Position numbers and translations under genes: made by a program
The notes under the pieces: model-generated
Database searches by the model: none
The model's input: only the letters and a program-made list of their open reading frames with translations
Told to the model about the DNA's origin: nothing
Shown: positions 6,267 to 13,950 of the stretch, in pieces
How the letters are laid out: every line of letters starts with the position of its first letter
Position numbering within the stretch: position 1 is the first letter of the stretch
Virus record (IMG/VR): IMGVR_UViG_3300032282_001564
Location: 1-64,000 of that record
Reading direction: 5' to 3' (one strand)
Length of the DNA stretch: 64,000 nt
From: a virus

Positions 6267-8777
6267 TTAGGTCTGTGCTAATATATGTTCCGAAACTTCT
6301 TTGTGCTCGTCGACTTTTCTAGCAATTAAGTCTAGTTTTTGCACCATTTCGCTAAAGATCTTGCTAGTTGCAGATGTTGATGTTGTTACTCCAGCACCTG
6401 AAACAATTTCTGGACCATCTTCACCAACGATGGTTGTATCGTCTGAACCCATTTTACCACCTAATCGTTTAGTTTGTATATGGATATGATCTCCGGTTGA
6501 TACTTTACCATTGGCATTCTTTTGACCTGCTTTTTCAAACTGTGCAAACTCAAGTCCGTATTTGTCTCTTATTTCCTGAGCTAGTTTATCACTCATGTTT
6601 GACAATACAATATCAGCCGCTTTACCCAACGGGTGTTTAGATTTATCACCAGCGTGAAATTTATCATTCAATGAAGTAATTTGAATTCCAGGATATTCAT
6701 CAATAATTTTTTCAAGTATCAATGAAAAGTTTTCATTGATGTCACCGTTGTCGCTTGCATTTCCTTTTAGTTTTGATCTAATTTTTTCTGATAAAAACTG
6801 CCTCATATCAATTGGAGTATTTTTTGTAACAGTTCCATTTAATATTGACTCTATAAATTCTTTACCTCCCCAGCGGCCGTAATTAGCGTAACGAGCCTTA
6901 CCCTCTTCTTGAGCGACTTCGGCGTATCTTCTAGCTTCAGCTTTTTTTGCTGGATCAGCAGACAATGCATTCATTCTAGCGTTTATTGCTTGTCCTTGAT
7001 TTATACCTGTACCAATTACAGCACCGGGGTTAGAATTTTTACCTGGTGTAACATTACTACTGACGTCATCTTTATTATTTCTACCCGGAGTCATGCCTGC
7101 TTTATCTAGTAGCTCTGCGACCCATTGACCAAATTTATCAACTGCTGTACTAAAGTCGCCAAAATTTTCAATTAACAACATGTTGATTTTATGTAGTGTA
7201 GCTGCCAAATCACCCATGTTTTTTAAATTTTGTTCAGCCCACTCATCCATTTTTTGCTCAACGCCTATTTTTGCGTCAAGAGCTTTCCGATACCCTTTGT
7301 CGCCATCTAATTCAGCTTTCTTTCTTCTATTTTCAATTGCCTTTGCATTATCTGCATAATTTTGTATAACAGAATTATTAGCAATAACATACGATTTAAT
7401 ACCAGCAATAGTGTCAACAAAATCTGCTACACCTTTATTTTGGAAACTGTCCAGTGAGGTTCTGACTGTACTTAAAGACGTTCCGGTTTCTTTTATAAGT
7501 GTTTCAAATAGTCTATCTCTTTCTGGTCCAGGTACCATTGTTTGTATTTGTAGCATACCGTCAGCTAACTTACGTAGCTCTGGAGAGTTTGCTAACAAGG
7601 CTATAGATTTTTCGTCTATCACATTTCCTGAGCCACCACGACCAAGAACTTCTGTTACTAATTTTGCTGCCTCAGGGCTAAAGAATTTTGAAATGGTAGA
7701 CATTTTGCGTTCTTGGTCTTCTGCCATTTTTGCAAACATCTCTGCGCCAGCCTGTGGGCCGTATTTTTTTATCAATGCGGCCTGCAGATCTTGCATTTTT
7801 TGTTGATATAAAAGATTGTTTTGTCGTTCACGAACTTCTTTTAGGTGTTGTTCGGCTGACATACCAGTTAGCTCTGTTAGTTCTTTTAATTTCCATAGAT
7901 AGTTGCCACTGGATGCACTCAAGGCATTTTGATTTTTTGCAAGGTCAACACCAAAGCCTGTCATTATTCTTGAATAACCAATTAAAGCCGCATTCATATC
8001 TTCTTGGGTACCGTAGGCTACCAATAATGTGGCAGAACTATTTTTAGCCACTTTACCCATTTGAGCAACTGCATTTGCACTTCCAATTATACCTAGACCC
8101 AACTCGCCTAGACCTGATGCATTTTCTGTTATAAATCTTTGCATCCTCATCATCGATAAGCCCATTGCAACAGACGCCTGTCTGGCTTGGTCAAGTGATC
8201 CACCAAAACTAGCACCTGCCTTTGATAATGCTTGATAGCTATTAAAATACTTTTGTACCTGCTCAAGTTGCATTGCTGTTACTTGTACAGTTAAATCTGT
8301 AACAGCCTGCATAGCCGCATTTGCCGCACCAAACAATGCACCAACATAAGGTATACCAGATAATGCTGAAGACAATGCACTAGATATAGCCTTCATTGCA
8401 TTACCCATTAGTTGTAATGTAGGTATTGCACTTGAATATACTTCTGCAGAATTAGCGCCTGCTGACGCCGCGGCTGTTGCACCGGCTACGAAACTTTTTA
8501 AACCGCCTACAGCTTGACTAATACCTTCAGCTAATGCTCTGTTTCTATTAGCCTGGTAGTCCGCTTGTTTTTCTTCATCGCTTAATTTTTTAGCTAATGC
8601 CTTAGATTCGGTTTCAGATAATTTTAATTTACGTTCTAAACTTTTGGCTAATTGGTCTTCGGCTAAACGTAGTGCAGTTTGTGATTTGGAACCTTTACCC
8701 CATGAGGCCGCAAGGGTTTCGGACACTTGCCCAAGTCTGATCAGTTTGTCTTGTAATTCCTGTGGAATGTCTGCCAT
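6267..8777 (-). CDS. Tail tape-measure-like protein with C-terminal M15 peptidase-like domain
   Basis: An 836-residue protein that I call a tape measure from its layout: a charged helical N-terminus (1-80), two long Ala/Gly/Ser-rich hydrophobic stretches (about 83-115 and 125-165), long helical central region, and the tape-measure-type motif GEDGPEIVS near 785. Residues about 690-770 resemble a VanY/M15 zinc peptidase: SKHPLGKAAD (SxHxxGxAxD) and GDHIHIQ supply the usual His, Asp, His metal ligands. Such a domain could cut peptidoglycan as the tape enters the cell wall. It lies next to gp20 on one side and diverges from the gp26/gp51 chaperone-like pair on the other, the usual partner of a tape measure. 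T4 gp29 is the functional counterpart. No Shine-Dalgarno is obvious. Confidence 0.78.
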   Translation of the reverse strand: MADIPQELQDKLIRLGQVSETLAASWGKGSKSQTALRLAEDQLAKSLERKLKLSETESKALAKKLSDEEKQADYQANRNRALAEGISQAVGGLKSFVAGATAAASAGANSAEVYSSAIPTLQLMGNAMKAISSALSSALSGIPYVGALFGAANAAMQAVTDLTVQVTAMQLEQVQKYFNSYQALSKAGASFGGSLDQARQASVAMGLSMMRMQRFITENASGLGELGLGIIGSANAVAQMGKVAKNSSATLLVAYGTQEDMNAALIGYSRIMTGFGVDLAKNQNALSASSGNYLWKLKELTELTGMSAEQHLKEVRERQNNLLYQQKMQDLQAALIKKYGPQAGAEMFAKMAEDQERKMSTISKFFSPEAAKLVTEVLGRGGSGNVIDEKSIALLANSPELRKLADGMLQIQTMVPGPERDRLFETLIKETGTSLSTVRTSLDSFQNKGVADFVDTIAGIKSYVIANNSVIQNYADNAKAIENRRKKAELDGDKGYRKALDAKIGVEQKMDEWAEQNLKNMGDLAATLHKINMLLIENFGDFSTAVDKFGQWVAELLDKAGMTPGRNNKDDVSSNVTPGKNSNPGAVIGTGINQGQAINARMNALSADPAKKAEARRYAEVAQEEGKARYANYGRWGGKEFIESILNGTVTKNTPIDMRQFLSEKIRSKLKGNASDNGDINENFSLILEKIIDEYPGIQITSLNDKFHAGDKSKHPLGKAADIVLSNMSDKLAQEIRDKYGLEFAQFEKAGQKNANGKVSTGDHIHIQTKRLGGKMGSDDTTIVGEDGPEIVSGAGVTTSTSATSKIFSEMVQKLDLIARKVDEHKEVSEHILAQT

Positions 8778-8842: not shown

Positions 8843-9688
8843 ATGAGTAGTTTATCTCAAAACCCATTAGCAAAGCATTTTAGACAACCACAGATTTACT
8901 TAAAGTTACCTAGCGAAGGTAGATGGTGGGCCGAAGGTTCTTTAGATTTACCTATCACCGGTGAATTACCAGTGTACGCAATGACGGCCAAAGACGAAAT
9001 TACAATGAAGACCCCGGATGCGTTAATGAACGGAACTAGCACAGTTAATGTAGTTCAAAGTTGTTGCCCAAATATCAAAGATGCTTGGAAAATGCCAGCA
9101 ATCGATTTGGATCCTATTTTAATTGCTATAAGAATTGCTACATATGGCAACGAAATGGAATTTACTAGTATATGCCCGCATTGTACTAACAAGAACGAAT
9201 CTGCAATTGATTTAACTGTCCTGCTAGATAAAGTTAAACCTATTGACTATAGCAAAACTGTTAAAAATGAAGATTTTGAAATTATCTTAAAGCCACAAAA
9301 TTTTGAAGAGTTTAATAAAAATAATCGACTAGCATTCGAAGAGCAACGCATAATCAAATTAGTGCAATCCGAATCTTTAGATGATGATGAAAAGTTAACA
9401 AAGTTTAATGAATTGTTTCAACAATTAATTGACACAGGTATTGGACAAGTTAGCAAAAGTATTGCCGGAATTAAAATGTCAGATGGTACCGTAGTTGATA
9501 ACCCGGAATTCATTAGAGAATTTTTAGATAATTGCGAAAGAGAAATTTGGGACGGTTTGAAAGAAACTCTTGACGGAATTAGAGCACAATCTAAATTTAA
9601 CGAAATTACTATCACCTGCGACAATACTGATTGTAAAAAAGAATATATAACACCTTTTGCATTTGAACAAACAAATTTTTTCGCATAA
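8843..9688 (+). CDS. 26: Baseplate hub assembly protein gp26
   Basis: A 281-residue member of the T4 gp26 family, implicated in assembling the baseplate hub. The family signature is clear: YLKLPSEGRWW (residues 19-29), LPVYAMTAKDEI (42-53) and TPDALMNG (57-64). Four cysteines, C111-x2-C114 and C259-x4-C264, suggest a zinc ribbon. ATG at 8843 has GGAG eight bases upstream. The gene ends in a canonical -1 slippery heptamer (9673-9679) four codons before its stop, so part of the product may continue into the next ORF (see 9673). The layout resembles the G/GT tail chaperones of other phages. Confidence 0.9.
   Translation: MSSLSQNPLAKHFRQPQIYLKLPSEGRWWAEGSLDLPITGELPVYAMTAKDEITMKTPDALMNGTSTVNVVQSCCPNIKDAWKMPAIDLDPILIAIRIATYGNEMEFTSICPHCTNKNESAIDLTVLLDKVKPIDYSKTVKNEDFEIILKPQNFEEFNKNNRLAFEEQRIIKLVQSESLDDDEKLTKFNELFQQLIDTGIGQVSKSIAGIKMSDGTVVDNPEFIREFLDNCEREIWDGLKETLDGIRAQSKFNEITITCDNTDCKKEYITPFAFEQTNFFA
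9673..9679 (+). other. Candidate -1 programmed frameshift site A AAT TTT
   Basis: The gp26 reading frame runs ACA AAT TTT TTC GCA TAA, so bases 9673-9679 form a textbook X XXY YYZ slippery heptamer. A -1 slip reads TTT CGC ATA AGG CTT TTG and enters the 72-codon ORF with no intervening stop. Two possible stimulatory stems lie downstream: CGTTA/TAACG (9698-9709) and TCGAGT/ACTCGA (9719-9740). The product would be a gp26-gp51-like fusion of about 355 residues. Confidence 0.6.
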
Positions 9689-9693
9689 GGCTT

Positions 9694-9912
9694 TTGACGT
9701 TAAGTAACGAGGAAATTGTCGAGTACATTAAAGAACTCGAACAAGAAGCAAAAGCCTTAAAAGAAGAACTCCTCAATGTATGCTGGTATATGCGTGGTAG
9801 TATCTCTTACGATGATGCTATTATGTTATCATATGATGATCGTCATATAATTAGTAAAATTATCAAGCATAACCTAGAGACAACAGAAAAGTCGGGCCTA
9901 CCATTTTTCTAA
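9694..9912 (+). CDS. 51: gp51-like hub assembly / tail chaperone ORF
   Basis: A 72-residue ORF directly after gene 26, where T4 has gene 51 (baseplate hub assembly catalyst). It has a charged coiled-coil-like start (EEIVEYIKELEQEAKALKEE) followed by WYMRG, SYDDAIMLSYDDR and KKSGLPFF-like endings (here EKSGLPFF), a pattern I associate with small tail chaperones. The only initiation codon is TTG at 9694, with AAGG three bases before it, which is poor spacing. This favours expression by -1 frameshifting from gene 26 or by re-initiation. Homology to T4 gp51 itself is inferred from position. Confidence 0.7.
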   Translation: MTLSNEEIVEYIKELEQEAKALKEELLNVCWYMRGSISYDDAIMLSYDDRHIISKIIKHNLETTEKSGLPFF

Positions 9913-10025: not shown

Positions 10026-10259
10026 ATGGAAATTCTTGCAACTATAAAAAAATGGGCTAATACTTTGTCTGAAGTAGGACTTAGCGTCATTGCTTTAGCA
10101 ATCGTATTAGAAGTTTTATTTAAGGGTGTAGCTATCCCTTTCTTCCCAGCAGTCTCAGTAACAGCTAATGTTACATCAATCATTGCCGCAATTGGCAGTC
10201 AAGGGCTAGTAGGACTTGTAGCAATTTGGGTCTTATACGCTATTTGGAAAAACAAATAA
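10026..10259 (+). CDS. Small two-helix membrane protein
   Basis: A 77-residue protein with a short amphipathic start (MEILATIKKWANTL), a first membrane segment at about 17-37, a small polar loop and a second segment at about 55-73 ending in WKNK. ATG at 10026 follows AAAGGAG with good spacing. The gene is its own unit: a hairpin before it and a long stem after it. Holin-like topology is possible but there is no lysis neighbour; I recall similar small proteins in T4-like marine phages without known function. Confidence 0.75.
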   Translation: MEILATIKKWANTLSEVGLSVIALAIVLEVLFKGVAIPFFPAVSVTANVTSIIAAIGSQGLVGLVAIWVLYAIWKNK

Positions 10260-10760: not shown

Positions 10761-11204
10761 TTACTGTGGACTTGGTGTCAGTTTGTTTTTGATGTGGGAG
10801 CCATGGACACGGACTTGAATATGTCCGTTATAGTAGTTGTCTGATTCTAATACTTTGTGTATGAATTGTTCACGAGCCTCAATATAGCTACATTCCGATT
10901 TACTGTTGCAATAAAATAATATTTCTCTGATAAAATTTTCTTTGCCTAGTGTTTCAACATCTTTGTTAAGTTCAATGTTTGAGCCATAATATTCTTGCCA
11001 GTCGCTGTCAACTTTGCTTCTGATCTTTTTCTTTTTCTTCTTACCATTTTTTAGTTTAACCATTTTATAAGTGGTTTTACTAAACTTAGCAAGTTTTTTG
11101 CCAATATACATCCTACCGGATACTTTATTTGTTATCAAATAAACAAATCCGATACAGTCTTCTGGTAATGTTTCTACTTGAGTGTGTTTGTAATGCCATG
11201 TCAT
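10761..11204 (-). CDS. GIY-YIG family endonuclease
   Basis: A 147-residue nuclease. GFVYLITNKVSGRMYIGKK (residues 19-37) is a GIY-YIG variant, followed by a Lys-rich DNA-binding-like stretch (about 47-62), DWQEYYGSN (68-76) and SYIEAREQF (about 105-113), whose Glu fits the catalytic metal ligand. This is the short T4 Seg-like or homing endonuclease layout common in T4-like phages. It is the last gene of the gp55-gp47-gp46 operon and directly abuts the structured region 10340-10760. It is probably free-standing and may be selfish. Confidence 0.8.
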   Translation of the reverse strand: MTWHYKHTQVETLPEDCIGFVYLITNKVSGRMYIGKKLAKFSKTTYKMVKLKNGKKKKKKIRSKVDSDWQEYYGSNIELNKDVETLGKENFIREILFYCNSKSECSYIEAREQFIHKVLESDNYYNGHIQVRVHGSHIKNKLTPSPQ

Positions 11205-11233: not shown

Positions 11234-11677
11234 TTACAAATTTTTCTCGTAGATCCAACCTAAATTCTGTGTACGGTGTATCCAAGTAAATATTGGAGTT
11301 TCAAATTCTAATACCCATTCGCCGTTCCATCCCAAGTAATTACTTTTTAAAGGTAATCTATCAATTGGGTAATATGTTGCTTGATGCATAAAATCGTCTA
11401 ATTTATATCCTTCAATTTCAATTGGGTGTATATAAATTGCTTTGTCTTTGGTAATACTACCGTTTTCTACTACAGTATCTGCGTCAGTTTTGTTAACTAG
11501 ACCCACTTGTAATTTGTGTAATCCGTCGTCTAAATCGACGTCAAAGTGATAGGTTAACTGTTCGCGTAGTGAGCCTTGATCCTGTAGCTCGCCGTCAATT
11601 TTAATATAAAATACGGGCCATACATCATCGTACCCTTTAGGCTCAACAGTTAAATCAAATTTTAATTTAGTAGCCAT
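11234..11677 (-). CDS. Beta-rich conserved phage protein of unknown function
   Basis: A 147-residue protein with alternating beta-type segments and many aromatic residues, notably the C-terminal SNYLGWNGEWVLEFETP and FTWIHRTQNLGWIYE blocks (residues about 113-145). The look is of a beta-sandwich or carbohydrate-binding-like fold, but I do not recognise a family. It overlaps the stop of the preceding radical SAM gene by 11 bases, so the two are translationally coupled; it could be a partner or substrate of that enzyme, which is inference only. Confidence 0.7.
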   Translation of the reverse strand: MATKLKFDLTVEPKGYDDVWPVFYIKIDGELQDQGSLREQLTYHFDVDLDDGLHKLQVGLVNKTDADTVVENGSITKDKAIYIHPIEIEGYKLDDFMHQATYYPIDRLPLKSNYLGWNGEWVLEFETPIFTWIHRTQNLGWIYEKNL

Positions 11678-12971
11678 ATTTTTTAAAATAGTCAGTTAGC
11701 ATGGGAAAAGCATTGATTACGCTAGTACCACGTAGTTTGTCTAGCTGTTTAAATTTTGTAACAGATTCCTGTGCTAGTTGTTCATCAATAGTGCAGGCAT
11801 TTAAACTATTAATTGCCGCTTGTATTTCTTTTACTAGATTTTCTAATACGTATGTTTTGTTTCTAAAGTTAGTTAATCCAACTGTGCGATTTTCTAACAA
11901 TGGTTTATAACGAGCTAGTTGTTTTTTAAACTTGTCCTGTAACTCTGCTTTGATATCATTGGGCAACAATTTAATTTGTTGCCACGTTGGATCTGTAGCA
12001 AAATAACTGTTTAACAAAAAGTTATTATCATAGCACCAGTCTATTATACGGTCGTATTCGGTAATAGTCAAAAGCGTAGGTACAGTACGGATAACAAAAT
12101 CAACATTATCCGGAGCCGATGTTCTAAATGTATCTATGTTGCTGAGTATAGTATCTATGTTACCGCCATAGCGTACATAGTTGTTTGACTTACTGAGTGT
12201 TTCGACACTCATACCAATTTCAACTCGCTTAAACTTAGATAACTTTAACCACAAATGATCCAGTGAGTGCATACAGTTAGTGGTAAAACTAAAACTAAAA
12301 TCTGTATGATGTTTTAAAAAGAACATGTCAATTAACTGACCAAATCGTTTGTTAATTGCTGGCTCTCCGCCAATAATATGTAAACTAACTAATTTTGTTT
12401 TTAGTATAGTTTCACAAAACGTTTGCCATATAGCATCATCATCGGTCCAGTTAAGTCTACGAGCATCAGATGCCCAACCTAGATCCTTATAGTCACGTGC
12501 TAACTTATAACTAGCGTTTGGACTACACATAATACAGGCCATGTCGCATTCGTTGCCTAGGCTCAAATGATAACTAACTGGCCGTGTTACAGTAGCACCA
12601 TCATTGGCTAGGCTGTATTCAAATGCGGCTCTGTGAGGGCTTTGTTCAAAGCTCTTGTTAAAGTTACGATCGTAAAAGATAACACTCTTTAGGTTTTCTT
12701 TAATACGCTTACTATGATTACCTATCGAGTCTTGATACTGACATACCCCGCAGGCAGGATTAGGCACGTCTGACATTTTGCTTAATCGCTCATCACGTAG
12801 TCTGCGACTTTGCCAGTAATCATCGATAGGGTAGTTGCGTATGTTCCATTCTTTGGCGTCTTCAGTTTGTGTAATTAAACTACTCATACAGCCGCAGAGA
12901 TCGTAGCTACCATCGTGATTGATGTGTAGCTCGTACCAGGGTATGTTACAAAATATATCTTTATTCGGCAT
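11667..12971 (-). CDS. Radical SAM protein with N-terminal twitch-type Cys domain (1 of 9)
   Basis: A 434-residue enzyme. The radical SAM cluster motif is CDMACIMC (C142, C146, C149), which binds the 4Fe-4S cluster that cleaves S-adenosylmethionine. An N-terminal auxiliary region has FCNIPW (C8), LCGC (C26, C28) and ACGVC (C74, C77), the arrangement of a twitch or half-SPASM domain holding a second cluster. GGEP at about 200 is the SAM-binding motif. The substrate is unknown. It overlaps the next gene's start by 11 bases and lies downstream of gp46 and another radical SAM gene. Confidence 0.88.
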   Translation of the reverse strand: MPNKDIFCNIPWYELHINHDGSYDLCGCMSSLITQTEDAKEWNIRNYPIDDYWQSRRLRDERLSKMSDVPNPACGVCQYQDSIGNHSKRIKENLKSVIFYDRNFNKSFEQSPHRAAFEYSLANDGATVTRPVSYHLSLGNECDMACIMCSPNASYKLARDYKDLGWASDARRLNWTDDDAIWQTFCETILKTKLVSLHIIGGEPAINKRFGQLIDMFFLKHHTDFSFSFTTNCMHSLDHLWLKLSKFKRVEIGMSVETLSKSNNYVRYGGNIDTILSNIDTFRTSAPDNVDFVIRTVPTLLTITEYDRIIDWCYDNNFLLNSYFATDPTWQQIKLLPNDIKAELQDKFKKQLARYKPLLENRTVGLTNFRNKTYVLENLVKEIQAAINSLNACTIDEQLAQESVTKFKQLDKLRGTSVINAFPMLTDYFKKYGY

Positions 12972-13950
12972 TTTTACACTTTAGTTTACAAATGTCCAAT
13001 GGTGCTATTTCAAAACGTGTGTACATTTCTGCCCACAGTGGATCATCTAATATTTCTGTTAATGTACGTGACTTAATGTTTAATCGTTCTCGGTGCTTTT
13101 CAAAGAAATCGTTTTCCAGGTAGCCCGAGTTAAACCAAGGACAAGGAAACACATAGCCATCTACATTAATAAACATTGGTATGTCCCAATTAGCACAGCG
13201 AGCCCATTCATGTCGATCGCGTTTATTGTAGAATACTACAGGAATACGACTGTTTAATTTTTCCTGTAGTACTTGGTACTTGCCTATGGCTACATAGCCG
13301 CCTACAGGTTTTAGTGGATCTACGCCGTTGATGGTGTACTGATTATCAAACTTTGTACTCAGCACAGCTTCAAATGTATCAAAGCCTAAGTCACGTGCTA
13401 GATCTTGCATCCATGGCATCTTATCTTCGTTAAATTTAAAATAAATTGCCGACCAATTCATTTGTGCTTTTGTGACACGTCTTAATGCACGAGCCCCTGC
13501 AACGATACTATTAAAATCGCTATTAACTCTGTACTGTTCGTTGCTGGCTTGATCCCATCCGTCGACACTAAATGTAATCTTATCGTTGGTACGCAAATAC
13601 ATACCTAATTCTTGCCACCATGCTTCGGGCTTGTAACTACCATTGGTAACGATCACTAGGCTAACATTAAATCTAGCTCGTTTAATATATTCTATAATAG
13701 GCAAAAAGTCTCGAGCGTATATAGGATCACCTATGTCGCCACAGAAAGTTATTTCCTGTATTTCTTTTAGTAGTTCGGGGCTAAAGGCACGCTGAAACTC
13801 TAGTAAACTAATTTCTCTATTAAGATTATCTGGATTTAATTCCGTACGAGGACAACGTGGACATTTTAGTGTACACTTAGAACTTAGCTCAATGTGTATA
13901 CGCTTGTGGCTAAGTAATTTCGATGTCGGTGTTGTAACTTGTAAATCCAT
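12961..13950 (-). CDS. Radical SAM protein with C-terminal SPASM-like Cys region (2 of 9)
   Basis: A 329-residue enzyme with CTLKCPRC (C26, C30, C33) at the N-terminus and a C-terminal auxiliary cluster region (ARCANWD, then INVDGYVFPCPW, then CKLKC near 322-326), typical of SPASM-type peptide- or sugar-modifying radical SAM enzymes. FCGDIGDP (about 69-76) replaces the usual GGEP. The ATG at 13950 lies 41 bases inside the end of gp46, so it is co-expressed with that gene. Substrate unknown. Confidence 0.87.
   Translation of the reverse strand: MDLQVTTPTSKLLSHKRIHIELSSKCTLKCPRCPRTELNPDNLNREISLLEFQRAFSPELLKEIQEITFCGDIGDPIYARDFLPIIEYIKRARFNVSLVIVTNGSYKPEAWWQELGMYLRTNDKITFSVDGWDQASNEQYRVNSDFNSIVAGARALRRVTKAQMNWSAIYFKFNEDKMPWMQDLARDLGFDTFEAVLSTKFDNQYTINGVDPLKPVGGYVAIGKYQVLQEKLNSRIPVVFYNKRDRHEWARCANWDIPMFINVDGYVFPCPWFNSGYLENDFFEKHRERLNIKSRTLTEILDDPLWAEMYTRFEIAPLDICKLKCKNAE

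Follow-up and report, generated by a model that had tools for sequence, protein, structure and literature searches.

Comparative evidence for probable programmed -1 frameshifting in a gp26/gp51-type putative tail assembly chaperone gene of an environmental phage lineage and its jumbo-phage relatives

The window, by which we mean the whole 64,000-nucleotide stretch of viral DNA analyzed here, carries at positions 8843-9688 on the plus strand a gene for a 281-amino-acid protein whose sequence places it in the T4 gp26/gp51 family. The product matches PF12322, the family that contains T4 gp26 and gp51, with an E value of 8e-12 (45.7 bits, cut-off 24.5) and PHROG 150 with an E value of 1e-15, and no second PF12322 gene is present in the 113-kb record. 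The gene closes with ACA AAT TTT TTC GCA TAA, with the 0-frame stop at 9686-9688, and the -1 frame contains no stop from just upstream of the slip site discussed below until 9910-9912. The gene would thus specify a short form (TAC-N or "G"), and a shift into the -1 frame would append the extension at 9679-9912 on the same strand, starting FRIRLLTLSNEE and ending GLPFF, as a gp51-C or TAC-C like C terminus of a long form; the full fusion has 356 amino acids. The AlphaFold model of the 281-residue short form has a pLDDT of 85. Searching the PDB with this model in Foldseek gave no significant matches, the comparison with the HK97 chaperone 2ob9 was weak and within background (Z 5.9, rmsd 7.5, 89/104 residues), and a search by sequence turned up no experimental structure for either gp51 or the 8843-9688 protein.

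The divergent neighbor of this gene, at 6267-8777 on the minus strand, encodes an 836-amino-acid virion structural protein that is a plausible tape measure candidate. Its positional homologues in RaK2, 121Q and CBB match PHROG 14121, "virion structural protein", and the RaK2 annotation compares the homologue with a tape measure protein. The initial annotation of this DNA had named the neighbor as the tape-measure gene, an identity that goes further than this comparison: none of the family searches with the 836-amino-acid product names a tape measure. The C-terminal part of the same product shows a weak match to an endolysin family (PHROG 894, E = 0.001). Directly 3' of the putative frameshift gene, 10026-10259 (plus strand) encodes a hydrophobic protein of 77 amino acids with no clear family. 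Also near the gp26-type gene, 10761-11204 (minus strand) is a gene for a SegE-type GIY-YIG endonuclease (PF19835, E = 5e-31). In this T4-type phage, 11667-12971 and 12961-13950 (both minus strand) encode adjacent radical SAM/SPASM proteins beside a gp46-like nuclease gene; in the second of these, the Radical_SAM match falls just under the cut-off and the SPASM match is over it.

Two canonical heptamers overlap in the same phase at the end of the gene, A AAT TTT at 9673-9679 and T TTT TTC at 9676-9682, both in the arrangement X XXY YYZ. The initial annotation had proposed A AAT TTT as the slip site, and its phase is indeed correct, but it is present in only 16 of the 28 distinct lineage sequences with an intact 3' end and was rejected as the conserved heptamer; that role falls to the overlapping T TTT TTC, which is invariant in all 28. 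Conservation across related phages, which had been suggested as a check, holds for T TTT TTC beyond the lineage too, as all eight jumbo-phage isolates have it in phase together with an open -1 frame. Among viral contigs, 39 relatives with 38-66% identity were identified, and an in-phase NNT TTT TTC G is found at every one of the 36 loci that include the 3' end. The codon before TTT can be AAT, AGT, CGT, CAT, GAT, TAT or TCT, and the residue encoded there is N, S or R in the lineage and additionally H, D or Y in the isolates; the last base of the codon is T without exception. For the 39 sequences holding T TTT TTC, the joint probability of these codon choices arising by chance is approximately 1e-37, a figure that ignores the relatedness of the sequences. 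TTTTTTC alone is not rare in the window, with 12 copies found against 18 expected, and the significance of the motif therefore rests on its conservation among relatives. The chance abundance of the motif is the observation that would favor reading the locus as two separate genes or as a gene split by decay or sequencing error, with no programmed event involved. Against this, the same split recurs in the 28 distinct lineage sequences, in the eight jumbo isolates and in seven T4-clade isolates, and selection is seen in both reading frames; conservation refutes a decayed or erroneously split gene, and we attach virtually no credence to a chance arrangement.

The open -1 frame past the gp26 stop, as the initial annotation had described it, extends 215-227 nt beyond the 0-frame stop at the 36 viral-contig loci wherever the contig continues that far. 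Pairwise identity in this frame is 0.60, 0.76 and 0.40 at codon positions 1, 2 and 3, respectively, the pattern of a frame that is under protein-level selection, and it has no conserved start codon. Within the first 30 codons of the -1 frame in the window, the sole start candidate is the TTG at 9694 that had already been noted as the only, poorly spaced start, with AAGG 3 nt upstream. This TTG would allow termination-reinitiation, in which gp51-C is a free small protein made from a start coupled to the gp26 stop and the poly-T run simply encodes Phe-Phe, and start codons occur elsewhere: six of the seven T4-clade phages with a single copy (P-SSM2, S-PM2, Cr30, phiM12, KVP40 and phiW-14) have an ATG within a few codons of the slip point on its 3' side, and in S-PM2, P-SSM2 and KVP40 the annotators assigned the short gene that follows to gp51 or to the C terminus of gp51. 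In the window's lineage, however, the TTG is absent from 8 of 24 sequences and no independent start for gp51, which had been named as evidence against frameshifting, is conserved, whereas the residues FFR, encoded in the -1 frame upstream of the TTG, are invariant in 24 of 24. Moreover, the codon choice TTT TTC and the final T of the codon before it do not vary, as they could if only Phe-Phe had to be encoded, and T4 gp51 is itself a fusion to a gp26 domain. We thus regard reinitiation as a very unlikely account of the locus. The ATG past the slip point makes a free short gp51 possible in the six T4-clade phages (L081, L082, L085, L086, L087 and L089 in our set), where frameshifting and reinitiation could both operate.

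Just 3' of the heptamer, the RNA is predicted to form a stem in which positions 9686-9696 pair with 9749-9759 (plus strand), its core beginning approximately 6 nt past the heptamer. The pairing has a z score of -4.5. In a set of 21 sequences, the eight central pairs are formed in all 21 with no mismatches; these sequences were selected for having the stem, which biases the percentage paired upward and the compensations less so. The central pairs show compensations from U-A to C-G five times and from G-C to A-U four times, and 13 double changes are seen, compared with 3.0 ± 1.4 in shuffles. When a 12-pair stem was evaluated on all 27 sequences, 20 double changes were counted against 6.2 in shuffles. 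Within a hand-picked subset of 14 sequences used for a structure scan, an excess of folding over protein-preserving shuffles appeared only in the 85 nt that follow the heptamer, with a mean z of -3.9 there and values between -0.5 and +0.1 elsewhere; the mean folding z past the heptamer is -2.8 when the full set of 24 lineage sequences is used and -2.0 for 15 isolates. Most relatives in the lineage have a downstream stem. A few members (L015, L034 and HTVC008M) show no significant folding past the heptamer, which means that such a structure cannot be a universal requirement, and a few others form a different hairpin. RNAalifold returned no structure for the mixed alignment, a result explained by members that pair in a different register or fold into a different hairpin. 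The stem at 9686-9696/9749-9759 covaries, which is consistent with a stimulatory structure placed for the ribosome.

The same evidence bears on transcriptional slippage, in which RNA polymerase would add or drop a U in the T6 run and so produce -1-frame mRNAs. In favor of polymerase slippage, almost every sequence contains a T6 run, and Cr30, phiM12 and HTVC008M have runs of T7 or longer. In most sequences, however, the run holds at six and is closed by a C, it is fixed in a codon phase that a slipping polymerase has no need of, and the covarying stem stands at the spacing of a frameshift signal and points to the ribosome. We find scarcely any grounds for preferring slippage by the polymerase.

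Among named phages, the nearest are myoviruses of the jumbo class, with identities mostly of 24-33%. The eight isolates that share T TTT TTC and an uninterrupted -1 frame comprise Phosso, Atu_ph07, MIJ3, RaK2, 121Q, CBB, SCTP-2 and Vibrio 2.275.O; their records either list the extension as a hypothetical protein of its own or leave it unannotated. When the extension alone was compared with pooled profiles of the jumbo phages and gp51, it scored 66%, while 60 column-shuffled controls reached at most 2.2%; the match is convincing only with these pooled profiles and controls, since a direct profile match of the lineage extension to the T4-clade extensions, excluding T4 gp51, gave a nonsignificant 0.55%. 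A viral fold search with the extension returned weak matches to proteins annotated as tape measure or tail assembly chaperones, in Moogle with E = 2.0 and in BonaeVitae with E = 5.0, which we did not use as evidence.

Compared with a profile built from gp51 and the T4-clade fusions, the fusion of the window's lineage matches end to end and across the slip point, at 98.7% and E = 3e-16; against T4 and RB43 gp51 alone the full fusion gave 1.4%, which is not significant, and the T4-clade intermediates therefore carry the link. T4 gp26 and T4 gp51 both match PF12322 along their full length and are thus paralogues, gp51 having an additional C terminus, and the C terminus of T4 gp26, KEFFELL, coincides with the position of the frameshift in other phages. 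Of 19 phage records compared, those of T4 and RB43 contain two PF12322 proteins each and the remainder one, that of SCTP-2 being recognized by PHROG 150. In five T4-clade phages the PHROG 150 match stops at the end of gp26 and resumes in the -1 frame, and the layout of gp26 split from a -1 frame is found in seven T4-clade isolates; these junctions carry T TTT TTC or T TTT TTT, those of KVP40 and phiW-14 included. The gene order in KVP40 is tail tube, gp26, gp51 and a large unknown gene. Two relatives have other arrangements at the junction. In the Salmonella phage Vi01 (L084), the -1 frame of gp26 encodes a gp51-C-like stretch that is not annotated as a gene, and the junction, GAA ATT TTC ATT TAA, has no canonical heptamer. 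In the Rhodothermus phage RM378 (L098), the extension at the 3' end of the PF12322 ORF is in the +1 (equivalently -2) frame at a TTT TTT TGG run, and this distant relative may therefore use a different shift.

The pairing of gp26 with gp51 has a history in the literature. In a T4 review, both are listed as hub assembly chaperones (PMC3004832), and Sullivan et al. 2010 found the gp51 of cyanophages to be only ~20% of the normal length, with a similar C terminus (PMC3037559). As cited in the PRFect paper (PMC10885494), Vladimirov et al. 2022 describe T4-like phages in which one copy is short and another is long and fused, and as cited in the paper on phage Adele (PMC12846349), the same work reports poly-T slippery sequences in T4-like TAC-N genes; to judge from these two citing papers, the equivalence of T4-like gp26/gp51 was already proposed there (Vladimirov, Gautam and Davidson 2022, Virology 566:9-15). 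The suggestion in the initial annotation that T4 gp26 and gp51 are the corresponding chaperone pair is therefore not new, and it gains support here from their paralogy and the C terminus of gp51. With the concept of the frameshift published, our analysis extends it to the window's lineage and to jumbo phages and adds a conserved stem; the literature that we searched contained no earlier report of the covarying stem or of the jumbo-phage extension.

Comparison across these phages reveals the slippery site, a -1 frame with no conserved start, the covarying stem and the homology of the fusion to gp51, and on this comparative footing we consider programmed -1 ribosomal frameshifting in a tail assembly chaperone gene, giving a short and a long form, to be the probable explanation (probability roughly 0.9). 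What we infer is that ribosomes shift frame here in vivo, how efficiently they do so, and that the products act as chaperones. The comparative evidence also favors the G/GT-type plan that had been suggested for the locus, in which a gp26-type protein is joined to a gp51-type C terminus, and a chaperone function is suggested by this layout and by homology to the T4 hub-assembly chaperones. Under programmed frameshifting, the majority of ribosomes would terminate at 9686-9688 and release the 281-amino-acid short protein. In a minority, slowed by the downstream RNA stem during the slip, the two Phe tRNAs on TTT TTC would move back by one nucleotide simultaneously at T TTT TTC, and these ribosomes would read on in the -1 frame to yield the 356-amino-acid fusion with its added domain of gp51 C-terminal type. 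The lambda G/GT pair is a tail assembly chaperone, and by analogy both forms may co-assemble on the tail tape measure protein, presumably by binding it; the extension would recruit tail tube subunits, and both forms would depart before virion assembly ends. T4 and RB43 would obtain the same two proteins from a pair of paralogous genes, 26 for the short and 51 for the long.

In a tree of the family, the T4 clade is separate from the clade of the jumbo phages and the window, the placing of T4 gp26 being affected by long branches. Members with the frameshift occur in both clades, and the frameshift is therefore likely the ancestral state. We lean towards a wider scenario in which the common ancestor of the T4 superfamily, taken to include the jumbo phages, already made the pair by frameshifting, genes 26 and 51 of T4 are a derived duplication, the short "gp51" of marine phages is the -1-frame tail of gp26 rather than a free-standing protein, and the stem sets the ratio of the two forms in the window's lineage.

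If correct, the frameshift reading brings a large set of phages, both environmental and jumbo, under the G/GT-type scheme of chaperones, explains the orphan or missing small ORF after the annotated gp26 in these phages and offers an explanation for the short gp51 of cyanophages and KVP40. It supports the equivalence, proposed in the literature, of this pair with T4 gp26 and gp51, for which hub assembly had long been the only chaperone role described, and it provides a frameshift signal, supported by covariation, that a reporter could test.

The closest known system is T4-like gp26/gp51, which belongs to the same family (PF12322, PHROG 150) and in which the long protein equals the short one plus a C-terminal domain; T4 and RB43 use two genes for this, whereas the window's lineage would use one, through T TTT TTC and a conserved long-range stem. 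Lambda G/GT and the HK97 gp13-type system are alike in having a short protein and a minor -1 extension near the 3' end with no start of its own. We found no sequence similarity between these and 8843-9688, and the fold match was the weak one to HK97 2ob9 only; unlike the lambda and HK97 genes, 8843-9688 is divergent from the tape-measure candidate and not directly upstream of it. The TAC locus of Vandenendeviridae and Andersonviridae (PMC12846349) is another case of a myovirus whose tail chaperone gene has a -1 frameshift at a poly-T site; these are other phage families, with the slippery motif GTTTTT. Finally, the marine short "gp51" of S-PM2, P-SSM2 and KVP40 is likewise a -1-frame continuation of gp26 that matches the C terminus of T4 gp51, although it is annotated separately, usually has an ATG and is shorter, with an extension of 57-63 codons against 70-77.
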